The notes under the pieces: model-generated
Seen by the model: the letters and a program-made list of their open reading frames with translations, nothing else
The model's database searches: none
Told to the model about the DNA's origin: nothing
Made by a program: the position numbers and the translations under genes
Origin: Ferrovibrio sp. MS7
GTDB lineage: Bacteria; Pseudomonadota; Alphaproteobacteria; Ferrovibrionales; Ferrovibrionaceae
Assembly (NCBI RefSeq): GCF_038404985.1
Contig: NZ_JBBKBA010000001.1
Span: 648,001-712,000, forward strand
Direction: 5' to 3'
DNA length: 64,000 bases
Shown: positions 6,106 to 28,871 of the stretch, piece by piece
How positions within the stretch are numbered: the first letter of the stretch is position 1
Layout: the number at the start of each line of letters is the position of its first letter

Positions 6106-6432
6106 ATGCGTCCGGTCTGGTTATTGATTGTCTTTATGGCGCTTGTGCCGTTGCTGGCGCTGGCGGGCAATGCCGTGTTGCCGAAAGCACCGACGGCTGT
6201 CCGCGACGGGGCAGCATCGCACCGGCTGCTGGTGCTGTTTCCGCCGCATCTCGATTCAACCGCCGCGATGACACGCATCGCCGGCCATGGCCGGCCGCTT
6301 GCCGAAGGCCGCGCCGGTTCCTGGTTGGTGGCGGGCGATGACGGCCTGGCCGCCGCGCTCTACCGCAGCGGCGCCTGGCTGGTGCTCGATGCCGAAAGCT
6401 GGCTGGCCGGTTGCTTCACCCGATCTTCGTAA
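6106..6432 (+). CDS. small predicted membrane-anchored or exported protein of unknown function
   Basis: A 108-residue protein that I do not recognise. An N-terminal hydrophobic stretch (WLLIVFMALVPLLALAG) looks like a signal peptide or membrane anchor. The remainder has alternating hydrophobic segments ending in GAWLVLDAESWLAGC, a compact alpha/beta-like pattern. It is followed after 28 bp by a chemoreceptor gene on the same strand, so co-transcription is likely. The coding pattern (codon bias, gene-like spacing) supports a real gene, but no function can be assigned. Confidence 0.65.
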   Translation: MRPVWLLIVFMALVPLLALAGNAVLPKAPTAVRDGAASHRLLVLFPPHLDSTAAMTRIAGHGRPLAEGRAGSWLVAGDDGLAAALYRSGAWLVLDAESWLAGCFTRSS

Positions 6433-19292: not shown

Positions 19293-20060
19293 TCAGCCTT
19301 CCTTTACCGCCACGGGGGCGGAGAAGCTGTAGCCGATGCCGTAGACCATCTTGATCGGGGCTTCGCCGCCCGAGGCTTCCTCGATCTTGCGGCGCAGGCG
19401 ACGCACCAGGGCATCGATCGAGCGGTCTTCGGCGCGCAGGCTGGGCCGCGACAGCACGCGGGCGATTTCATCGCGCGGGCAAGCCTTGCCGGCGCGCTCG
19501 ATCAGCGCCGAGAGGAAGGCGACTTCGCTGCCGGTCAGCCGCACGCTGGCGGCATTGGGGGCGGTGAGCTGCCATTGCATCGGCTGGAACTGCCAGCCGG
19601 CTTCGCCATGGGCGGCTGCCTCGCCGGCCTCGCCGGCGCCACCTTCAGCGCTGGCGCGGGTCTGTTCCAGGCGGCGCAGCACCGAGCGGATCGTCGCCTC
19701 GATCTCGCGCAAGCTGGCATGCTTCACCAGATAGGCATCGGCGCCGCTTTCCAGGCCCTCGACGCGATCATCGGCACTGGAGCGCATGGTGAGCATCACG
19801 ATGCCGCAATCGGAATCCTGGCGCAGTTCGCGCGCCAGATCGAAACCGTTGCCATCGGGCAGGTTGACGTCGAGCAGCACCAGATCAGGCACACCGTGCC
19901 AGGCGATATGGTTGCGGAAACCGGTGGCATCGCCGATGCCGGTGACGCTGTAGCCATGCGCCAGCAGGAAGTCCACCAGATCGACGCGCAGCGACGGTTC
20001 GTCTTCGACGACGACGACGCGGGTCTGGGGGGGGGAAGCGGCTTCGACGCGGGTAACCAT
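19293..20060 (-). CDS. OmpR-family response regulator
   Basis: A 255-residue two-domain regulator. The receiver has the acidic pair in VVVEDE (E19, D20), phosphoacceptor Asp64 (VLLDVNLPDG), a Thr in MLTMRS and a Lys in YLVKHAS. An Ala/Glu/Gly-rich linker (about 135-155) joins a winged-helix DNA-binding domain (LTGSEVAFLSALIERAGKACPRDEI; SIDALVRRLRRKIEE; VYGIGYSF). It would bind DNA as a dimer after phosphorylation by a kinase. It is transcribed in the same direction as the five-kinase array, with only the pentapeptide-repeat gene between them, so it is the best candidate cognate regulator. That pairing is inferred. Confidence 0.92.
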   Translation of the reverse strand: MVTRVEAASPPQTRVVVVEDEPSLRVDLVDFLLAHGYSVTGIGDATGFRNHIAWHGVPDLVLLDVNLPDGNGFDLARELRQDSDCGIVMLTMRSSADDRVEGLESGADAYLVKHASLREIEATIRSVLRRLEQTRASAEGGAGEAGEAAAHGEAGWQFQPMQWQLTAPNAASVRLTGSEVAFLSALIERAGKACPRDEIARVLSRPSLRAEDRSIDALVRRLRRKIEEASGGEAPIKMVYGIGYSFSAPVAVKEG

Positions 20061-20225: not shown

Positions 20226-21455
20226 CTAGATGTCCGAGCCGGTGGTGTTGGCGCCCGCCAGCATCATGCCTTCACGGCGGGCATCGCCGAAGCGGCAGCC
20301 GCGCAGGTCGGCCTCGCTGAAATTGGCCCGGCTCAGGTTGGCCGGCCAGTTGCGGCCCGTCGGCCGGCCGGCGGGATCGCGCAGCGGCACCGCCAGGAAG
20401 CGGGTGCCGCGCGCCTTGACCTTGGTCAGCACCGAGCCGGCCAGGTTGGCGCCATCCAGCACCGCGCCATCCAGGTTGGCGCCATTCAGGTTGGCTTCCG
20501 AAATATCGGCCAGCGTCAGGTCGGCTTCGGCGAGCTGCACATTATGCAGGTCGGCGCCGCGCAGCATGGCGGCGCGCAGATCGAAGGCGGAGAGATCGAG
20601 GCCGATCAGCGAGCGGCCGCCGAGATCGAGCCGGGTACCGCTGGCGCCGTTGGTGTTGATCCACACACTATGGGCATCGATCAGCGGCTGCAGCCAGTCG
20701 GGCAATTCGCTGTTCGGGCGGCGGCGCACCGCGCCGGAAAGATCGGCGCCGTCGAGGTTGCATTTCGAGAGATCGACATTGCGCAGGTTGGCGCCGGAAA
20801 GATCGGCGCCGGTGAATTTCGCCCCCACCACCTGGGCACCGACCAGATTGGCCTCGCGCAGCTTGGCGCCGGAGAAATCCGCGCCTGAGAGATCGGCACC
20901 GGCGAGATTGGCGGCGAAGAGATTGGAGCGCGGGAAGGTAGCGTTGCCGGCGGATGACAGTTTGAGCAGCGCACCGGAAAGATCGGCGCCGGAAAAATCG
21001 GCGCGCTCGATCTGGGTGTTGCTCATGTTGGTCGGCCGTTCCTCTGATTCCTCGCGGCCATTCACCAGGCGCAGGATCTTGCCCGGGCGCAGATCGGCAT
21101 CGCGCAGGATGGCATCGTTGAGCCGGGCATTGCTGAGGTTGACGCCGCGCATGTCGGTGCGCACGAAGCTGCAACCGGAGAGATCGGCGCGGCTGAAATC
21201 GACGCCCTGCAGATTGGCGGCATCGCAGCGCGAGCCGCGCAGCATGGCATCGGTGAGGGTGCAGCCGGTGAGGATGGCGCTGCGCAGATCGAGGTTAAGC
21301 CCAGAGAGGCCGGAAAGATCGATCATGCGCATGACGATGCGCTGGCCGGCCGGCAGATTGGAGGTGAAGCGCGCATGCGCCGCCGCCGCCTTCAGGAAGG
21401 AGCGGATATTCGGATTCTGATTCTGGGCAGCATTGCCCGCCGGTTCTAACGCCAT
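20226..21455 (-). CDS. pentapeptide-repeat protein
   Basis: A 409-residue protein dominated by A(D/N)LxX repeats, which fold as a right-handed quadrilateral beta-helix. At least three blocks are visible: about residues 45-130, 150-240 (for example ADLSGADFSGAKLREANLVGA) and 270-340 (ADLHNVQLAEADLTLADISEANLNGANLDGA). Non-repeat insertions separate them, and a final short block ends the protein. No signal peptide or membrane segment is seen, so it is probably cytoplasmic. Some family members mimic DNA and inhibit gyrase; others are scaffolds. It lies between the kinase array and the OmpR-type regulator on the same strand, so a scaffold role in that pathway is possible but unproven. Confidence 0.9.
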   Translation of the reverse strand: MALEPAGNAAQNQNPNIRSFLKAAAAHARFTSNLPAGQRIVMRMIDLSGLSGLNLDLRSAILTGCTLTDAMLRGSRCDAANLQGVDFSRADLSGCSFVRTDMRGVNLSNARLNDAILRDADLRPGKILRLVNGREESEERPTNMSNTQIERADFSGADLSGALLKLSSAGNATFPRSNLFAANLAGADLSGADFSGAKLREANLVGAQVVGAKFTGADLSGANLRNVDLSKCNLDGADLSGAVRRRPNSELPDWLQPLIDAHSVWINTNGASGTRLDLGGRSLIGLDLSAFDLRAAMLRGADLHNVQLAEADLTLADISEANLNGANLDGAVLDGANLAGSVLTKVKARGTRFLAVPLRDPAGRPTGRNWPANLSRANFSEADLRGCRFGDARREGMMLAGANTTGSDI

Positions 21456-21693: not shown

Positions 21694-23115
21694 TCAGGCA
21701 ACGGGTAGCGTTATCTCGGCAAAGGTGCCCTGGCCTGGCTTGCTCTGCAACCTCAGTTCGCCATTTTGTGCTTCGAGCAGGCGTCGCACCGCATGCAGGC
21801 CCAAACCGGTGCCGCGTGCCTTACCAGCATTGGAACCTCGAAAGAAGCGTTCACCAAGCTGTGCCAGGTCGTCGGCCGGAATGCCGATGCCCCGGTCGGC
21901 GATGCCGATAATGGCCACGCCGCCCTGCCGCCCCAGGCTGAGCGCCACCGGCTGCCCGGCGGCAGAGTATTTCAGGGCATTGTCGATCAGGTTGGCGCAG
22001 ATGGTGGCGATCCAGTCCGGGTCGCCGAGTGCCGCCAGGTCATCCTCGCCCGGCGCCACGCTCAAGCTCAGGCGTTCGGCATTGCCGGCGCCGACATCGC
22101 GGCAAAGCTCCTGCAGCAGGGGTTTGAGCTGCACCGGTATGCGCCGACCGGCACTGAGGCCGCCTTCCAACTGCTCATTGGCCAAGAAGGTATCCATCAG
22201 CCGCCGCAGCCGCCGCCCGGCGCCTCGGATCGCCTCCAGCCGCTGCAGCACGCCCTGACCGGCCTGGGGCAGCAGGTTTTCCAGCATCTCGGCGGCGCGG
22301 TCGATCACCGCCACCGGGGTGCGGAAATCATGCCCCACCATGTCGATGAACAGGCGCTGCTCGCGGCGCAGATCGCCCTCCTTTTCCAGCGCCGCGCTGA
22401 GCTGCGCCTGCAATTGCCGCCGCGTCTCCACCTCGTTCGCCAAGGCCTCGTTGCGCCGGGTGAGTTCATCCAGCAGCCGGCTGCCGACCAGCGCCACCAG
22501 GGCGATGAAATGCAGCCCGGCATAGATGATGGTGCTCAGCACCCACAGCACCTGCTCCGGCTCCAATTGCCAGGAGGCATCCGGCGGGCGCAAGAACTGG
22601 GCATGGAAGGCACGCAGCAGCGAGGTGCCGCCATGCGCCAGGTTCAGCGTCACCAGCGCCCAGCGCAGGGCCGGCCGGATATTCGTGGCCGGAATCATGT
22701 TCAGGGCGGTGACGATGGTGATGATGCCGATGAAGCCGGTAAGCGCGACAATGCGGATGGAAACATTCCCGGGCACCAGCAGCAGCAGCAGTGGCCAGGT
22801 GATGGCGGTGACGCTGACCATGAGCCAGGCGAACCAGCGCAGCGAGGGCCGCCCAACCAGTTGCATCATGCCGACCATCACCGTGGCATAAGCGATGATG
22901 ATCATCAGGTTGGCGGCGCAGATGATCAGGAAGCCGGGCGAGACTTCGCGCACGGCATGCAGGATTGCCCCAAGCGCTGCAGCAGCAGAGCCGAGCATGA
23001 TGTTGCGCACGCCCGGCATGTCGCGCACGCCACGGCGCAGCGCGAACCAGCCGGCGGCCTGAACCACAAGCTGCACCAGCAGCACCAGGTTCATGGTCAG
23101 CAGATCGATCTTCAT
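21694..23115 (-). CDS. array kinase 5: complete membrane histidine kinase
   Basis: A 473-residue paralogue and the last of the five. About seven hydrophobic segments span residues 5-210, followed by a short coiled coil with the REQRLF motif. The phosphoacceptor is canonical: VGHDFRTPVAVIDRA, with His262. The ATPase domain is complete: N box NLIDNALKYS, G1 box DRGIGIP, F box ERFFRGSN, G2 box GTGLGL. It is therefore the only array member with every catalytic motif. The gene starts 33 bp after kinase 4, whereas the other junctions overlap. It could autophosphorylate alone or be phosphorylated in trans by its His-less paralogues. A divergent origin for the C-terminal half is suggested by AVRRLLEAQNGEL instead of the SAARLIQ seen in kinases 1-3. 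Confidence 0.95.
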   Translation of the reverse strand: MKIDLLTMNLVLLVQLVVQAAGWFALRRGVRDMPGVRNIMLGSAAAALGAILHAVREVSPGFLIICAANLMIIIAYATVMVGMMQLVGRPSLRWFAWLMVSVTAITWPLLLLLVPGNVSIRIVALTGFIGIITIVTALNMIPATNIRPALRWALVTLNLAHGGTSLLRAFHAQFLRPPDASWQLEPEQVLWVLSTIIYAGLHFIALVALVGSRLLDELTRRNEALANEVETRRQLQAQLSAALEKEGDLRREQRLFIDMVGHDFRTPVAVIDRAAEMLENLLPQAGQGVLQRLEAIRGAGRRLRRLMDTFLANEQLEGGLSAGRRIPVQLKPLLQELCRDVGAGNAERLSLSVAPGEDDLAALGDPDWIATICANLIDNALKYSAAGQPVALSLGRQGGVAIIGIADRGIGIPADDLAQLGERFFRGSNAGKARGTGLGLHAVRRLLEAQNGELRLQSKPGQGTFAEITLPVA

Positions 23116-23148
23116 TCCCGGCTCATTTTTTTGTTTTCGTTTACGCCC

Positions 23149-24540
23149 TTAGCCGGTCTGTTCCGGTACCCGGCAGGGCAGCCGCAGCACGGCAAGGCGG
23201 CCCGGCCCGGCAGCGGTACCGCTGAGCAATTCGCCGCCTTGTGCTTCCAGCAGCCGGCGCGCGGTGATCTCGCTTAAAGATTCGCCATCGGTTGCCGGGG
23301 CATTGCCTTCGAGGATCAGTTCAGCCGTCGTCTCGCCCGCCGCTGTCACGCTCTGGTGCAGCACCAGCTTGAGCGGCACCGCCTGCGGCCCGACGCCATG
23401 CAAAGCCGCATCCACCAGACTGGCAATGGCAATGCGGGTGAGATCGGGATCGCCCTGCACCAGGCAATGCTGCGGCAGGTCGAGATCGATCCGGGCGGCC
23501 TGCTGCTCGTCCAGGCCGACATGCCATTCATCAAGCTGATCGGCGAGATCGAAGCTTTCGCGGCGCGGTTCGCCGAGCCCGCTTTGCAGCCTTTCCTGCG
23601 CCAGGAAGGCATCGATCATCAGCCGCAGACGCTGGCCCTCGTTGCGCATCGCCGCCACTTCGCCAAGCTGCGGCGCCGCTTCCGGCTTGGCCGACAGTGT
23701 GATGCCGATCATCTCGGCGGCGCGGTCCATGATCGCCAGCGGCGTGCGGAATTCATGGCTCACCATGTCAAGGAAATGCCGCTGCTCGCGCCGCGCCGCA
23801 CTTTCCTCGGCCAAGGCAGCGGCCAGTTCCGCCTGCAACTGCCGGCGCTGGTCGGCCTCGCGCAGTAGCATCTCGTTCTGCTGCACCAGGGCATAGGCCA
23901 GGCGACTGCCGAGCAGGGCGACGATGCCGATGAAGAAGAAGGCGGCGTAGAGGATGAATTCCAGGTAGAAGACGCTGCGGATGCCGGCCGGCACCAGGCT
24001 GCTGCCGGTGAGGATTTCCTCCAGGCCATCGATGAAGCGGAAGGCGGAGAAGGCGGCATGGAACAGGTTGAGCGCCGCGATCAGGCCGCGTATCACCTTC
24101 GGCGCCTGCTGCGCACCCCAGGCCTCCCGCGCACAGGCCAGCGCGATACCCATGCCCAGCACGGCACCGATGGCGCCGATCCAGCCCACATGGCCCGGCA
24201 CAAGCAGGGCATAGAGCGGCCAGGCGACCAGGTTGATCGCATAAAGCCCGACGCCGATACGCCAGGGCCGCGGCCGGTCGGCCATATCGGCAACCGCGAA
24301 CAGCGTCAGCACCAGGCCGCCGACGCCGAGATAATTCGCCAGCACATCGCTGAGCCAGACACTGACCTCGCCGCGCAGGCTGAGCAGCAGCAGGCCGGGC
24401 ACGAACAGCAGCGAGGAGATGAAGGAGATTTTCACCCCCGGCGTATGCGGCTGGTTGCGCCAGATCAGCAGCCAGCCGATGCCCTGCAGCAGCAGCACCG
24501 CCGCCAGCACCACCGCGAGCGTCTTTTGATCAAGCAGCAT
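23149..24540 (-). CDS. array kinase 4: keeps the phosphoacceptor His, ATP-binding domain degenerate
   Basis: A 463-residue paralogue with the same seven-segment membrane region and DHp helix. The H box is canonical: VSHEFRTPLAIMDRAAEMI, His262. The C-terminal domain is still alignable (GDPDLTRIAIASLVDAALHG; ARRLLEAQGGELL), but DNALKY has become DAALHG, so the Mg-binding Asn is gone. The G1 motif DRGIGIP is missing, and the F and G2 boxes are deleted in frame. It cannot be expected to bind ATP normally and would need phosphorylation in trans, or act as a phosphotransfer or phosphatase subunit. The ATG at 24540 overlaps kinase 3 by 11 bp and aligns with the starts of its paralogues. The reading frame is intact, so it is not an obvious pseudogene. 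Confidence 0.93.
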   Translation of the reverse strand: MLLDQKTLAVVLAAVLLLQGIGWLLIWRNQPHTPGVKISFISSLLFVPGLLLLSLRGEVSVWLSDVLANYLGVGGLVLTLFAVADMADRPRPWRIGVGLYAINLVAWPLYALLVPGHVGWIGAIGAVLGMGIALACAREAWGAQQAPKVIRGLIAALNLFHAAFSAFRFIDGLEEILTGSSLVPAGIRSVFYLEFILYAAFFFIGIVALLGSRLAYALVQQNEMLLREADQRRQLQAELAAALAEESAARREQRHFLDMVSHEFRTPLAIMDRAAEMIGITLSAKPEAAPQLGEVAAMRNEGQRLRLMIDAFLAQERLQSGLGEPRRESFDLADQLDEWHVGLDEQQAARIDLDLPQHCLVQGDPDLTRIAIASLVDAALHGVGPQAVPLKLVLHQSVTAAGETTAELILEGNAPATDGESLSEITARRLLEAQGGELLSGTAAGPGRLAVLRLPCRVPEQTG

Positions 24541-25990
24541 GGTTTCCGCTCCTGTGCAGATCCGCGGCCTGGGCTTCATCGCGAGCACCTGGCAGCGGCA
24601 GATAGACCGTGAAGATGGTGCCCTGGCCGGGCTGGCTGTGTACCGTGAAACGCCCGCCATACCACTGGATCAGGCGCGCGGCGCTGAACAGGCCGAGTCC
24701 CGTGCCGGGAATGGTGGCGGCATTGCCGGCACGGAAGAAACGCGTGCCGATGCCGTGCAGATCCTGCGCCGGAATGCCGATGCCGCGATCGGCGACGCGG
24801 ATTTCGGCTTCCTCGCCGCTGATCGAAAGGCTGAGCGCCACCGGCTGATCCAGGGGAGAGTATTTCAGCGCGTTGTCGATCAGATTGGCCAGCGCCAATG
24901 ACAGCATCGCGGCATTGGCCTGCACCTGTACCGGGGTTTCCGGCAGGCGCAGATGGATGCGGCCCGGACGATCCGGCGGCTGGCGCTGTTCAGCAAGGTC
25001 GCTGAGCAGGGTGCCAAGCTCGACTTCGCCCTGCGGCTGCTGCGCCAGATGTTCGCTGACTTGGCGGTCAAGCAGGAAAGTGTCGATCAGGGTGCGCAGG
25101 CGCTGCGCCGCCGTGACAATGGCATGGGCGCGGTTGGCAATCGCCGGGTTCTGTGTCAGCGCCTCGGCGCGGTCGATCACATGCAGCAGCGGATTGCGGA
25201 AATCATTGGCGATACGGGCGATGAAGCCATGCTGTTCGCGCCGCAACGCCGTTTCCTGCGCCAGTGCGGCATCGAGCTGGCGCTGGATATCGGCGCGCTG
25301 CTGCAATTCGCTGACCAACTGGTCGTTACGCTGGCGCACATTCCTGTGCAACTGCAATCCGAGCAGCACACCGAAGGTGATGCTGGCGGCGATGGTGGCA
25401 ACGATATTCTCGCAGGCCCAGACCAGGCGGCTGAGCGAGGGATCCATGACACCTTCATGCACCGTGTCGCCGATGCCGGTAAGGCCGCGCCCGAGGCTGA
25501 AGAAGCCATGCAACGCCCAGGCGCTGACGAAAACCGCACGCATATTCTGCGGCAGGTTGGACTGCCACAAGGTCAGCGACATGCCAAAGGCCAGGATGGC
25601 GAGCAAGGGCGTGTTCAGCAGGGTGCGGTAGCCGCGCTCATCGGGCCAGAAGCCGAGCAGCACCGGCCATACCAGCACCACTACCGCGACACTGACATAG
25701 ACCAGCCTGGTCTGGCGCGGGCGGTGCAGCAGATCGGCATGGGCGAACTGCATCAGCCCGGCAGAGTAGATGAAGATGACATTGGCGACATAGCTGGAAA
25801 GCCATGGCGAGACCGCGTCGCGCAGCACCAGCAGCACCACGCCGATACCGTTGAGCACGATCGAGGCGGTCCACACCGCCAGGCCCGGCTGCTTCGGCTG
25901 CACCCGCCATACGATCGCCCAGGCAACGCCATGGATCAGCATCAGCGCCGCTTGCACGATCAACAGGGTGCGCAGATCCAGCGTCATCAT
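24530..25990 (-). CDS. array kinase 3: phosphoacceptor His replaced by Asn, ATP-binding domain intact
   Basis: A 486-residue paralogue. The N-terminal seven-segment membrane domain runs to about residue 210. At the H box, RIANDFRNPLLHVIDRAEAL has Asn262 (codon at 25205-25207) where His is required; its neighbours are typical. The ATPase domain is complete: NLIDNALKYS, DRGIGIP, TRFFRAGN, GTGLGLFSAARLIQ. It could thus bind ATP but not autophosphorylate on His, and may donate phosphate to a partner subunit in trans. The ATG at 25990 overlaps kinase 2 by 4 bp; a second ATG at 25987 would place the H-box position at 261, exactly as in kinases 1 and 2. Confidence 0.95.
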   Translation of the reverse strand: MMTLDLRTLLIVQAALMLIHGVAWAIVWRVQPKQPGLAVWTASIVLNGIGVVLLVLRDAVSPWLSSYVANVIFIYSAGLMQFAHADLLHRPRQTRLVYVSVAVVVLVWPVLLGFWPDERGYRTLLNTPLLAILAFGMSLTLWQSNLPQNMRAVFVSAWALHGFFSLGRGLTGIGDTVHEGVMDPSLSRLVWACENIVATIAASITFGVLLGLQLHRNVRQRNDQLVSELQQRADIQRQLDAALAQETALRREQHGFIARIANDFRNPLLHVIDRAEALTQNPAIANRAHAIVTAAQRLRTLIDTFLLDRQVSEHLAQQPQGEVELGTLLSDLAEQRQPPDRPGRIHLRLPETPVQVQANAAMLSLALANLIDNALKYSPLDQPVALSLSISGEEAEIRVADRGIGIPAQDLHGIGTRFFRAGNAATIPGTGLGLFSAARLIQWYGGRFTVHSQPGQGTIFTVYLPLPGARDEAQAADLHRSGNHAA

Positions 25991-27423
25991 GCCCCCTGCT
26001 GCAACGGCAGATGCACGGTGACCTGCGTGCCCTTGTCAGGCTCGGAGGAAACCAGGAAACGGCCGCCATGGAACTGGATCAGCCGCGCCGCGCTGAACAG
26101 CCCCAGGCCCGTGCCCTGCACCTTGGCGGCATTGCCGGCGCGATAGAAACGCTGGCCGATGGCGGCAAGGTCGCTGGCCGGGATGCCGATGCCGCGATCC
26201 TGCACCGTCACCACCGCCTCGTCACGCTCGCGGTGCAGGCGCACATCCACCGCTGCATCGGCGGCCGAGTATTTCAGCGCATTATCCACCAGGTTGCCGA
26301 ACACGATGGCCAGCATGGCGGCATCGCCATGGGCCATCACCGGCAGCTCGGGCGCTGCGAAGCGCAGCCGCTGCTCGGCATTGGGCCGCCCGCCGGGCCG
26401 GCTATGATCGCGCAGCAGGTCATGCAGCAGCACTTTCAGGTCCACGGCATCGTGGCGCATCTCGGCAATGCCGCTGCGGATACGGCGCTCGAGCAGGAAG
26501 GTACGGATCAGCAGCTTAAGCCGCGCATTGGCGCCGCCGATGGCATCGAGGCGCGGCATGATACGCTCGCGGAATTCTGCCGGTGCCGCGCGCAAAGCCT
26601 CGGCATGGCCGGCGATGGCGCGCAGCGGGCGGTCCAATTCCTGCCCCATGCGGGTGACGAATTGCTGCTGCTCGCGCCGCATGCTGGCTTCGCGGCTCAA
26701 GGCACCGCGCAACTGCACCTGCAGCATGCGCTGGGTGGCGATGATCTCGGTCAGTGCCTGATTCTGGTTCTGCTGGTCCCGGGTCAGGCGGATGCCGAAC
26801 AGCATCGCGAACACCACCGAATAGACGAACAGCGCGATGGTATGCTCAAACGACCAGAATACGTTGAAGAAATTGCCGATCAGGTAGGAGGTGCCGTCCG
26901 GCGTCAGGGCGCCATAGACGCCGCGTATTGCCAGCGCTATCGCATGGAGCACCGCCAGCACCAGCACCGGGCCGCGCGCGCGCCACCCAAAGCTGGTATC
27001 AACCAGGATCAGCCAGGCGACGCACAGAAACTGAACGCCGGCGAACAGCGCGTAGAACACGATGCGGATGCCGATATCGTCGGGTCGCGTGATCCAGAGA
27101 AACGACCATAGCAGCAGGGTCAGCAGCGACAGGCCATAGAGCAGCAGGCGCGGCCTGGGCTGGCGCAGCAGGTCGGCAATGGCGAAGATGGTGAAGCTCT
27201 GGCCCAGGATCACCAGCGTGTTGGCCAGCACCACGGAGAGCCAATCGCTGATCATGCCGCGCAACGCCACCAGCACCAGGCCGGCGGCGATCAGCACGAT
27301 GCCGCCGGTCCAGGGCCGCAGGCCAGGCAGCCTTGGATGCGCCAGCCATATCATCACCCAGGACAGGCTGGCAGCCGCGGCCAGCAGGCTGGTGACGAAT
27401 AATATGGTGCGGGTATCCAGCAT
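25987..27423 (-). CDS. array kinase 2: phosphoacceptor His replaced by Gln, ATP-binding domain intact
   Basis: A 478-residue paralogue, most similar by eye to kinase 1. Seven hydrophobic segments precede a linker helix (REQQQFVTRM). The H box reads MGQELDRPLRAIAGHAEAL: Gln261 replaces His (codon at 26641-26643), and the usual RTP has become DRP. The ATP-binding boxes are all present: NLVDNALKYS, DRGIGIP, QRFYRAGN, GTGLGLFSAARLIQFHGGRF. It shares one base with kinase 1 (TGATG) and four with kinase 3, so translation is coupled. Catalytic ATP binding without a His suggests donation to another subunit or a purely allosteric role. Confidence 0.95.
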   Translation of the reverse strand: MLDTRTILFVTSLLAAAASLSWVMIWLAHPRLPGLRPWTGGIVLIAAGLVLVALRGMISDWLSVVLANTLVILGQSFTIFAIADLLRQPRPRLLLYGLSLLTLLLWSFLWITRPDDIGIRIVFYALFAGVQFLCVAWLILVDTSFGWRARGPVLVLAVLHAIALAIRGVYGALTPDGTSYLIGNFFNVFWSFEHTIALFVYSVVFAMLFGIRLTRDQQNQNQALTEIIATQRMLQVQLRGALSREASMRREQQQFVTRMGQELDRPLRAIAGHAEALRAAPAEFRERIMPRLDAIGGANARLKLLIRTFLLERRIRSGIAEMRHDAVDLKVLLHDLLRDHSRPGGRPNAEQRLRFAAPELPVMAHGDAAMLAIVFGNLVDNALKYSAADAAVDVRLHRERDEAVVTVQDRGIGIPASDLAAIGQRFYRAGNAAKVQGTGLGLFSAARLIQFHGGRFLVSSEPDKGTQVTVHLPLQQGA

Positions 27424-28871
27424 CAGGCTGCCACCGCGGTGGCGTCGTGCAGCGGCAGATGCACGGTGATGCGCGTGCCCTGTTCGGGCACGGAATCGAC
27501 CAGAAAACGACCGCCATGGAACTGGATCAGCCGCGCCGCGCTGAACAACCCGAGGCCGGTGCCGGGCACATTGGCGGTGTTGCCGGCGCGGAAGAAGCGC
27601 CGCCCGATGGCGCCGAGATCGCGTTCGGGAATGCCGATGCCGCGATCCTGCACGATCACCACGGCTTCGTCATGATCGCGGCTGAGGCTGACCTCCACCA
27701 CCGCATCGGCGGGAGAGTATTTCAGCGCATTGTCGATCAGGTTGCCGAACACCACCGCCAGCATGGCGGCATCGCCGCGCGCCGTCACCGCGCCATCGGG
27801 CAGTGCCAGCTTCAGCCGCCATTCCGCGCCGGGCCGCCCGCCGGGCCGGCCATGTTCGCGCAGCAGATCGGTGAGCAGGACGCCCAGATCCACCGGATCG
27901 CGGCGCATGTCGCCCATGCCGCCCTGAATGCGGTGGTCGAGCAGAAAGGTGTCGATCAGCATGCGCAGCCGCCGCGCCGCGCTGCCAATGGCCTCGAGGC
28001 GAGGGGCAATGGTCGCCTGCAGCGGCTGCGGCACATCGCCGAGCCGTTCGGCATTGCGCACAATGCCACGCAGCGGCTCGTCGAAATCCTGGCTGACGCG
28101 GGTGATGAAACGCTGCTGCTCGCGGCGCAGGCCGGCCTCGGTATCCAGCGCCGAGCGGAGCTGACCCTGCAGGCCGCGCTGGGCATCTATCTCTTCGGCC
28201 AGGACCAGATTGCGGCGCTGCAGGTCGGCGGTGAGGCGGGCACCAAGCAGCACCGCAAAGCTGACGGTAAAGGCGATCACCGAGATGGTATTCTCGAACG
28301 CCCAGAAGATATTGATGGCCGTGCCGCGCAGATAATCGGCGCCCTGGCTGAGCAGTGCCCCGCTGATGCCATGCAGCAGCAGCACGCAGGCATGGAAAAT
28401 CGCATAGGCGATACCGGGCAGGCGCTGCAGATAGGGCAGCGTGCGGTCGCGCAGCAGCATCCATGCCATGGCGCAGTAGATCGTCAGCACCAACAGGGCA
28501 TAAATCGCCTGGCGCAGGCCCAGTTCGTCCGGCCAGCCGAACCACAGGATCGGCCACAGCACCACCACGATGCCGGTGATACTATAGCCGAGGCGCAACG
28601 GACGCGGCCGGCCAAGCACATCGGCGAAGGCGAAAATCATCAGCACCTGGCCATGCACCGCCAGTACATTGCCGACAATCACCGACAACCAGCCATCGAC
28701 CACGCCGCGCAAGGCCAGCAGCACCAGGCCGACGCCGGCACAGACCGTGGTCAGCAACCAGGTACGCACACCCGGCAAATGCCGTTGTCCCAACCAGACC
28801 GGCAGCCAGGCAAGGCAAACGCCGATGGCGAGGACAAAGGTAGTGAAAATCAGGGTGCGGACATCAAGCAT
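27423..28871 (-). CDS. array kinase 1: phosphoacceptor His replaced by Gln, ATP-binding domain intact
   Basis: The first gene of the array, 482 residues from the ATG at 28871, chosen because MLDVRTLIF aligns with the other four N-termini; a GTG at 28889 would add six. The membrane domain has about seven segments, with the shared pattern LPGVRTW and LLALRGVVDGWLSVIVGN. That pattern also recurs, as I recall it, at the N-terminus of some GGDEF proteins. The H box is RVSQDFDEPLRGIVRNAERL: Gln261 instead of His (codon at 28089-28091). N, G1, F and G2 boxes are intact (NLIDNALKYS, DRGIGIP, RRFFRAGN, GTGLGLFSAARLIQ). It ends with a 1-bp overlap on kinase 2. The enoyl-CoA hydratase gene ends 86 bp upstream. 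Confidence 0.95.
   Translation of the reverse strand: MLDVRTLIFTTFVLAIGVCLAWLPVWLGQRHLPGVRTWLLTTVCAGVGLVLLALRGVVDGWLSVIVGNVLAVHGQVLMIFAFADVLGRPRPLRLGYSITGIVVVLWPILWFGWPDELGLRQAIYALLVLTIYCAMAWMLLRDRTLPYLQRLPGIAYAIFHACVLLLHGISGALLSQGADYLRGTAINIFWAFENTISVIAFTVSFAVLLGARLTADLQRRNLVLAEEIDAQRGLQGQLRSALDTEAGLRREQQRFITRVSQDFDEPLRGIVRNAERLGDVPQPLQATIAPRLEAIGSAARRLRMLIDTFLLDHRIQGGMGDMRRDPVDLGVLLTDLLREHGRPGGRPGAEWRLKLALPDGAVTARGDAAMLAVVFGNLIDNALKYSPADAVVEVSLSRDHDEAVVIVQDRGIGIPERDLGAIGRRFFRAGNTANVPGTGLGLFSAARLIQFHGGRFLVDSVPEQGTRITVHLPLHDATAVAA

Follow-up and report, generated by a model that had tools for sequence, protein, structure and literature searches.

A tandem array of paralogous membrane histidine kinases with complementary catalytic losses in Ferrovibrio, a candidate multi-input split histidine kinase

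Histidine kinases are usually homodimers that are insulated from each other. A stretch of 64,000 nucleotides from Ferrovibrio sp. MS7 (contig NZ_JBBKBA010000001.1, positions 648,001 to 712,000; hereafter the window), part of a genome of 4.58 Mb, raises the question of how five adjacent paralogous membrane kinases could work when only one of them retains both the phosphoacceptor histidine and the ATP-binding site. Judged from the sequences, the locus is probably a multi-input split histidine kinase working as hetero-oligomers, in which HK1 to HK3 would phosphorylate HK4 (and HK5) and the phosphate would then pass to a shared regulator. The five genes, named HK1 to HK5 in the order of transcription along the minus strand, are listed below (TM, transmembrane; DHp, dimerisation and histidine phosphotransfer domain; CA, catalytic and ATP-binding domain).

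27423..28871, minus strand: HK1, 482 aa, 7-TM, DHp with Gln261 (codon 28091-28089) at the phosphoacceptor site, CA domain intact
25987..27423, minus strand: HK2, 478 aa, Gln261 (codon 26643-26641), CA domain intact, start overlapping the HK1 stop by 1 nt
24530..25990, minus strand: HK3, 486 aa, Asn262 (codon 25207-25205), CA domain intact, 4-nt overlap with HK2
23149..24540, minus strand: HK4, 463 aa, His262 (codon 23757-23755), H-box HEFRTP intact, ATP-binding boxes lost, 11-nt overlap with HK3
21694..23115, minus strand: HK5, 473 aa, complete kinase, His262 (codon 22332-22330), 33 nt after HK4

With three overlaps and one short gap between them, the genes are arranged as in one operon. The preliminary description had reported five tandem same-strand paralogous kinases of 463-486 residues whose H-box position, 261 or 262, read Gln, Gln, Asn, His, His, and this held for the five open reading frames listed: the column is Q261, Q261, N262, H262, H262. 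In an alignment to a solved kinase the HK3 asparagine lies opposite the histidine of KdpD (6lgq), which places the column at the true phosphoacceptor position and rules out misalignment of the H-box as the cause of the Q/Q/N reading. The division of motifs was also as first described: HK1 to HK3 keep the N, G1, F and G2 boxes and have no histidine, HK4 has the histidine and none of the boxes, and HK5 alone is complete. A Pfam search of the window proteins found HATPase_c (PF02518) in every one of the five kinases but HK4 (E 5e-24 to 4e-27); HisKA (PF00512) was found in HK4 (E 7e-8) and fell under the curated cut-off in HK1 to HK3, so that HK5 alone carries both domains at the curated cut-off, HK1 to HK3 only HATPase_c and HK4 only HisKA. 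About seven hydrophobic segments had also been described in each protein. AlphaFold2 monomer models of HK5 and HK4 have seven TM helices, the last continuing into the first DHp helix (mean pLDDT 84.8 and 88.0), and in the HK4 model the CA domain is reduced to a remnant; a simple hydropathy scan counted 7, 7, 5, 6 and 5 segments for HK1 to HK5.

Ten Ferrovibrio genomes were searched: that of the window (G000), a 72% complete genome of the same species (G061), for which only the regulator and flanking genes were used as queries, and eight others. The array was present in four of them (G000, G003, G006 and G007), with three, one, one and one His-less members, respectively. In G003 and G007 (loci L033 and L032) it consists of three genes: a His-less one with alanine at the site, one with the histidine and a lost ATP site, and a complete one. 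The G006 array has two, a His-less gene with arginine at the site and one with the histidine and a lost ATP site, and the regulator is still present. No complete kinase was found in the G006 array, whose locus is free of N and has a 331-nt gap without a convincing HK5 remnant; tblastn gave a single 10-residue match there, on the opposite strand (E 0.43), which was taken as chance. The array stands in one syntenic place: in G003, G006 and G007 the gene order is CMD, ECH (our presumed labels for the upstream flanking genes), array, pentapeptide protein and regulator.

A split histidine kinase in the sense of Amin, Porter and Soyer has its ATP-binding and phosphoacceptor functions on separate polypeptides, the HATPase-less acceptor bearing HE/DxxN/T, as set out in PMC3591291. 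In the array genomes the two parts are likewise found on separate polypeptides, HK1 to HK3 and HK4 in the window and their counterparts in the other three genomes, by sequence and, for the window proteins and five array proteins of the others, by Pfam. All four ATP boxes are intact in the six His-less array proteins, HE/DFRTP is intact in 7/7 array proteins that bear the histidine, and each of the four ATPase-less proteins has HEFRT, which fits the acceptor motif. The expectation that homologous loci would repeat the pattern was thus borne out in part: the complementary losses are conserved as clades and do not look like random decay, but what is kept is the absence of histidine (Q, N, A or R at the site) and not the literal Q/Q/N/H/H pattern, with His-less members differing in number between genomes.

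Trees bear on the age of these classes. In a tree of 22 proteins the His-less, ATPase-less, complete and single kinases each formed a group at support 100/100, and three outgroup kinases formed no firm group (52/1); in a tree of 19 proteins, none with an internal stop, a branch supported at 100/98 or better likewise set off each array class. Loss of catalytic parts might by itself draw sequences together in a tree, and a further tree was therefore built from sensor and coil with DHp and CA left out. It returned the same four groups at support 100/98 or better, which speaks against clades created by the losses themselves. The order of the groups differed between these midpoint-rooted trees, which carry a long-branch warning for HK3, HK2 and both G006 genes: the sensor tree separated the array from the single and outgroup kinases (94/93), whereas the whole-protein tree joined the His-less class to them (93/86). 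Recovery of the classes as clades in both trees indicates that the losses are old and have been kept, the simplest reading being that the histidine and the ATP site were each lost once, before the four genomes diverged; the absence of the complete class from G006 would in that case be a loss. HK1 and HK2 resemble recent duplicates (89-92). The branch of HK3 is an earlier one (83-91), and HK3 may represent an older copy that the other genomes have lost.

Conservation is complementary as well. It was scored as mean identity against nine single and outgroup kinases, with domain borders of our own choosing and the His column omitted from the first DHp helix. For that helix the six His-less proteins scored 0.29-0.38, the four ATPase-less ones 0.61-0.69 and the three complete ones 0.52-0.55; for the CA domain the values were 0.40-0.44, 0.22-0.29 and 0.42-0.47 in the same order. 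The ATPase-less proteins have thus retained the histidine-bearing helix, and the His-less ones the ATP site. The sensors of all 13 array proteins are equally distant from the single and outgroup kinases (0.22-0.27). The first DHp helix also docks the regulator. The pattern fits a division of labour, though by itself it is no proof of transfer between partners. The array genes are under purifying selection in the one species pair compared, G007 and G003, the closest two: the ratio of non-synonymous to synonymous substitution rates (dN/dS), obtained with our own Nei-Gojobori script and a codon bootstrap, was 0.15, 0.19 and 0.14 for the three whole genes, and 0.11, 0.32 and 0.41 for pairs of single kinases.

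Loss of the histidine is unusual in this genome. A search of it with HK5 gave 49 matches, six of this family and 43 others. All 43 others keep the H-box histidine followed by Asp or Glu (33 by a first pattern and 10 by eye after a looser one), against three His-less proteins among the six of the family (Fisher p 0.001, an overstatement, since the His-less three appear to have a common origin). Seven of the 43 others were missed by a G2 pattern that is too crude to measure ATP-site loss. According to the SMART counts given in PMC3591291, 1556 of 42417 HisKA proteins have no HATPase and 711 of those have HE/DxxN/T, so that an HK4-like protein is by itself no rarity. What stands out is such a protein paired with His-less paralogues in one conserved locus.

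Downstream of the array lie two further genes.

20226..21455, minus strand: pentapeptide-repeat protein, between the array and the regulator in all four array genomes
19293..20060, minus strand: OmpR-type response regulator, the likely common output of the array

The regulator is taken as the output of the array mainly because the kinase family is paired with a related regulator elsewhere in the same genome. There, on another contig (L004:767-2910), a sixth family member, complete and with its histidine, has a stop that overlaps the start of its own adjacent regulator by 4 nt, and that regulator is 44% identical to the one in the window. An EDEPxLRxDLV stretch, which we take to adjoin the kinase-docking helix, is conserved in all 13 regulators compared, and crosstalk is possible since the array regulator and the L004 regulator share it. 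Scans of the locus for promoters and terminators found no more than in shuffled sequence. G061 yielded no close counterpart of the regulator, of ECH or of the pentapeptide protein, so that its assembly may lack the stretch. Proteins related to the pentapeptide-repeat protein form five-gene tandem runs in two other Ferrovibrio genomes (G005:C1:1118195-1124704 and G001:C5:13459-19960), and no kinase array was found in either genome.

Complete kinases that stand singly beside a regulator are encoded in G000, G006, G001, G002, G004 and G005, and also in another genus (G151, G251 and G332, by H-box and core match and the regulator, with Pfam for one of the three); we take this single, complete kinase to be ancestral. 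Among 385 genomes of the class, with at most seven candidates scored in each, and among 61 genomes including the present one, a further array of the kind was not found, in searches that could miss distant arrays; for the 16 genomes outside the genus that were matched in the class search, places from nine were examined and the other seven have one match each. A scan of genome contigs with a single peptide pattern gave 29 loci, of which L032 and L033 are, by their scores, the only arrays of the family. The 7-TM sensor of the array kinases matched no Pfam family, and among the best 50 of 903 Foldseek matches to the HK5 model, entries named kinase or phytochrome-kinase, none stood out for the sensor. 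In genomes outside Ferrovibrio, single complete kinases (L093-L095) carry this sensor, and so do proteins with GGDEF domains; the genome of the window itself also encodes a GGDEF protein that bears a distant copy of it (L031:2676-3878). In another alphaproteobacterial genus, three or four membrane proteins of the sensor family stand in tandem at each of three loci (L090:4240-8289, L091:1678-6524 and L092:4284-7656), GGDEF being found in four of the six tested with Pfam; for two of the four proteins in L090 Pfam shows no output domain, and the frame of one of these two contains a stop.

A mechanism can be proposed from these data. A 7-TM kinase with an OmpR-type regulator would have been duplicated and its copies would have lost complementary halves. 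HK1 to HK3, His-less sensors that may still bind ATP, would serve as catalytic subunits; HK4 would retain the phosphoacceptor helix and the regulator-docking face with no ATP site, and HK5 would do both. In a mixed dimer or oligomer a His-less sensor would phosphorylate the histidine of HK4, and probably that of HK5, and HK4 and HK5 would pass the phosphate to the regulator at 19293-20060. Without a partner, HK4 could act as a phosphatase through its HExxT motif. The coil preceding the DHp has an identity of 0.35-0.59 among the five window paralogues, against 0.19-0.42 in their sensors; such similarity would allow mixed coils, yet it is expected of any family. The stretch from the histidine to FL in helix 2, loop included, is 48 residues in all 12 single, outgroup and complete kinases, longer in all four ATPase-less members (50, 52, 52 and 52), and 48, 48, 43, 48, 48 and 47 residues in the six His-less proteins. 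Whether a kinase works in cis or in trans is decided by how its DHp loop is handed, as described in a review (PMC6798134) and in the MtrB paper (PMC5956149), and the longer stretch of the ATPase-less class is a possible sign of an altered mode, although it is no evidence of handedness.

Several points favour a split kinase and make it the probable reading: the same division of labour is found in four genomes at one syntenic place, the three classes are old clades, conservation is complementary, the whole genes and the CA domain of the His-less gene (dN/dS 0.16) are under purifying selection in the pair compared, the two-gene array of G006 has no complete kinase, the 43 other kinase-like matches of the genome all keep the histidine, the stretch from the histidine to FL is longer in the ATPase-less members, and split kinases are known to work. 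Other observations weigh against it. Geometry is the main risk, since the DHp loop of the family profile is within about one residue of that of HK853, and HK853 is a cis kinase. In MtrB, also a cis kinase, His-dead and ATP-dead mutants failed to complement, as reported in PMC5956149. CA boxes may also persist without activity; DivL is described as keeping them while binding ATP weakly (PMC4211667). The residue that replaces the lost histidine is not conserved (Q or N in the window, A or R elsewhere). Evolution between G007 and G003 was faster for the array genes than for the genes beside them (dN/dS 0.11 for the regulator, 0.08 for the pentapeptide protein and 0.04 for ECH), and the domain-wise values, again with borders of our own choosing, are too imprecise to show the contrast (CA: 0.16 in the His-less gene and 0.28, confidence interval (CI) 0.14-0.52, still below 1, in the ATPase-less remnant; DHp: 0.13 in the ATPase-less gene, 0.02 in the complete gene and 0.21, CI 0-0.84, in the His-less gene). 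The array is in only four of ten genus genomes, G003 and G007 being 83% and 87% complete, and as two of the four are very close it represents about three independent lineages. For the His-less gene of G006 (L023:6120-7571), the 60 codons that precede the start of homology contain no ATG, GTG or TTG, only a CTG at 6120 after GGAGG. Finally, the separate single kinase of G006 (L024) is complete and, given the EDEPxLRxDLV stretch common to the regulators, could phosphorylate the regulator of the G006 array.

The alternative that survives best, although we consider it unlikely, is that HK1 to HK3 are allosteric pseudokinases that heterodimerise with HK5 (and HK4) and tune it by conformation, as RetS and DivL do, donating no phosphate and leaving HK5 as the sole kinase. 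A DHp loop of cis length would suit this, RetS and DivL are both among the best 50 of 903 Foldseek matches to the HK5 model, and RetS regulates other kinases through interaction. DivL is not known to be part of a tandem set. As described in PMC4211667, Caulobacter DivL regulates another kinase through interaction and shows that a His-less kinase with all the other boxes can be purely regulatory; like the His-less array members it is of HisKA type, and one homologue has alanine at the site, as do two of them. It differs in having mostly tyrosine there, in keeping regulator docking with weak ATP binding and in acting on CckA (PMC4211667). In the array the site reads Q, Q, N or A, A, R with no tyrosine, and the docking helix is not conserved in the His-less proteins (0.29-0.38, against 0.52-0.69 in array members with the histidine). 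HK1 to HK3, with a diverged first DHp helix and a CA domain whose conservation is close to that of the complete kinase, are thus the reverse of DivL, which favours catalysis over regulator sensing. Moreover, an HK5-type kinase that could be tuned is missing from G006, although the separate single kinase of that genome might fill the place.

Alternatively, HK4 could be a dedicated phosphatase of the regulator, with phosphate coming from HK5 or from the single kinase elsewhere in the genome and HK1 to HK3 modulating. HExxT is kept in 4/4 HK4-type proteins and is, in PMC3591291, a motif used to count possible bifunctional split kinases. This alternative is improbable: it leaves unexplained both the intact ATP boxes of all six His-less members and the G006 array without an HK5, and a phosphatase role for HK4 is already part of the split-kinase model. 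Neutral decay of redundant duplicates kept open by chance would account for the varying residue at the lost site (Q, N, A, R), for the absence of the array from six of ten genus genomes and for its faster evolution than its neighbours, but is very improbable and was rejected given whole-gene dN/dS of 0.14-0.19 in one pair, no internal stop in 19 proteins, old classes in the trees and complementary conservation.

The split-kinase reading has precedents, and the initial statement that no system of this form had been described was too strong: CheA3/CheA4 and FasB/FasC are functional ones. Sensor kinases of Pseudomonas, GacS and RetS, heterodimerise to integrate signals but are not known to be adjacent paralogues with complementary losses. 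In Rhodobacter sphaeroides CheA3/CheA4, a working natural split kinase according to PMC3591291, catalysis and phosphoacceptor are on separate proteins, neither autophosphorylates alone, and the acceptor is also a phosphatase. The array shares the split of ATP catalysis from the phosphoacceptor, as far as its sequences indicate; in contrast, the Rhodobacter proteins are chemotaxis kinases, CheA4 without P1 and CheA3 without P3 and P4, whereas the array, which has HisKA and HATPase_c on a 7-TM sensor and not the CheA domain set, is of the membrane HisKA type with its own sensors. A split kinase is also proposed for FasB/FasC/FasA of Streptococcus pyogenes in PMC12675982: FasC gives the histidine (H246) and its kinase domain is dispensable, FasB catalyses, and two-hybrid data support heterodimers. 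The likeness there, one of arrangement and motifs, is that adjacent multi-TM kinases lie near one regulator and one has no working kinase domain; unlike the array, FasC retains a predicted catalytic domain, FasB has candidate histidines of its own, and there is one donor, not three (PMC12675982). In Corynebacterium glutamicum an ATPase-dead ChrS heterodimerises with its paralogue HrrS, but that pseudokinase is a frameshift product of laboratory evolution and not a conserved gene class (PMC9491836). A literature search with limited coverage of subscription journals found no tandem set of this form, nor any paper on a Ferrovibrio kinase. What is new in the array is that it has three His-less sensors to a single acceptor, that each of the two halves is fixed in the sequence, and that the arrangement is conserved while the copy number changes.

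The gene family seems to have been turned into mixed kinases through complementary loss, with single complete kinases and two-, three- and five-gene arrays surviving in one genus. A more tentative extension, which we rate as slightly less likely than not, is a combinatorial receptor in which the His-less kinases would compete as interchangeable ATP donors for one ATPase-less acceptor, so that the output would be a logic function of several signals; the acceptor loop would mark the switch from cis to trans, and G006 would hold the minimal, obligate two-subunit form. If the split-kinase reading is true, the array would be a natural system for studying how cis kinases become trans, how heterodimer specificity evolves after duplication, and how further catalytic subunits let a bacterium connect more sensory inputs to a single regulator.

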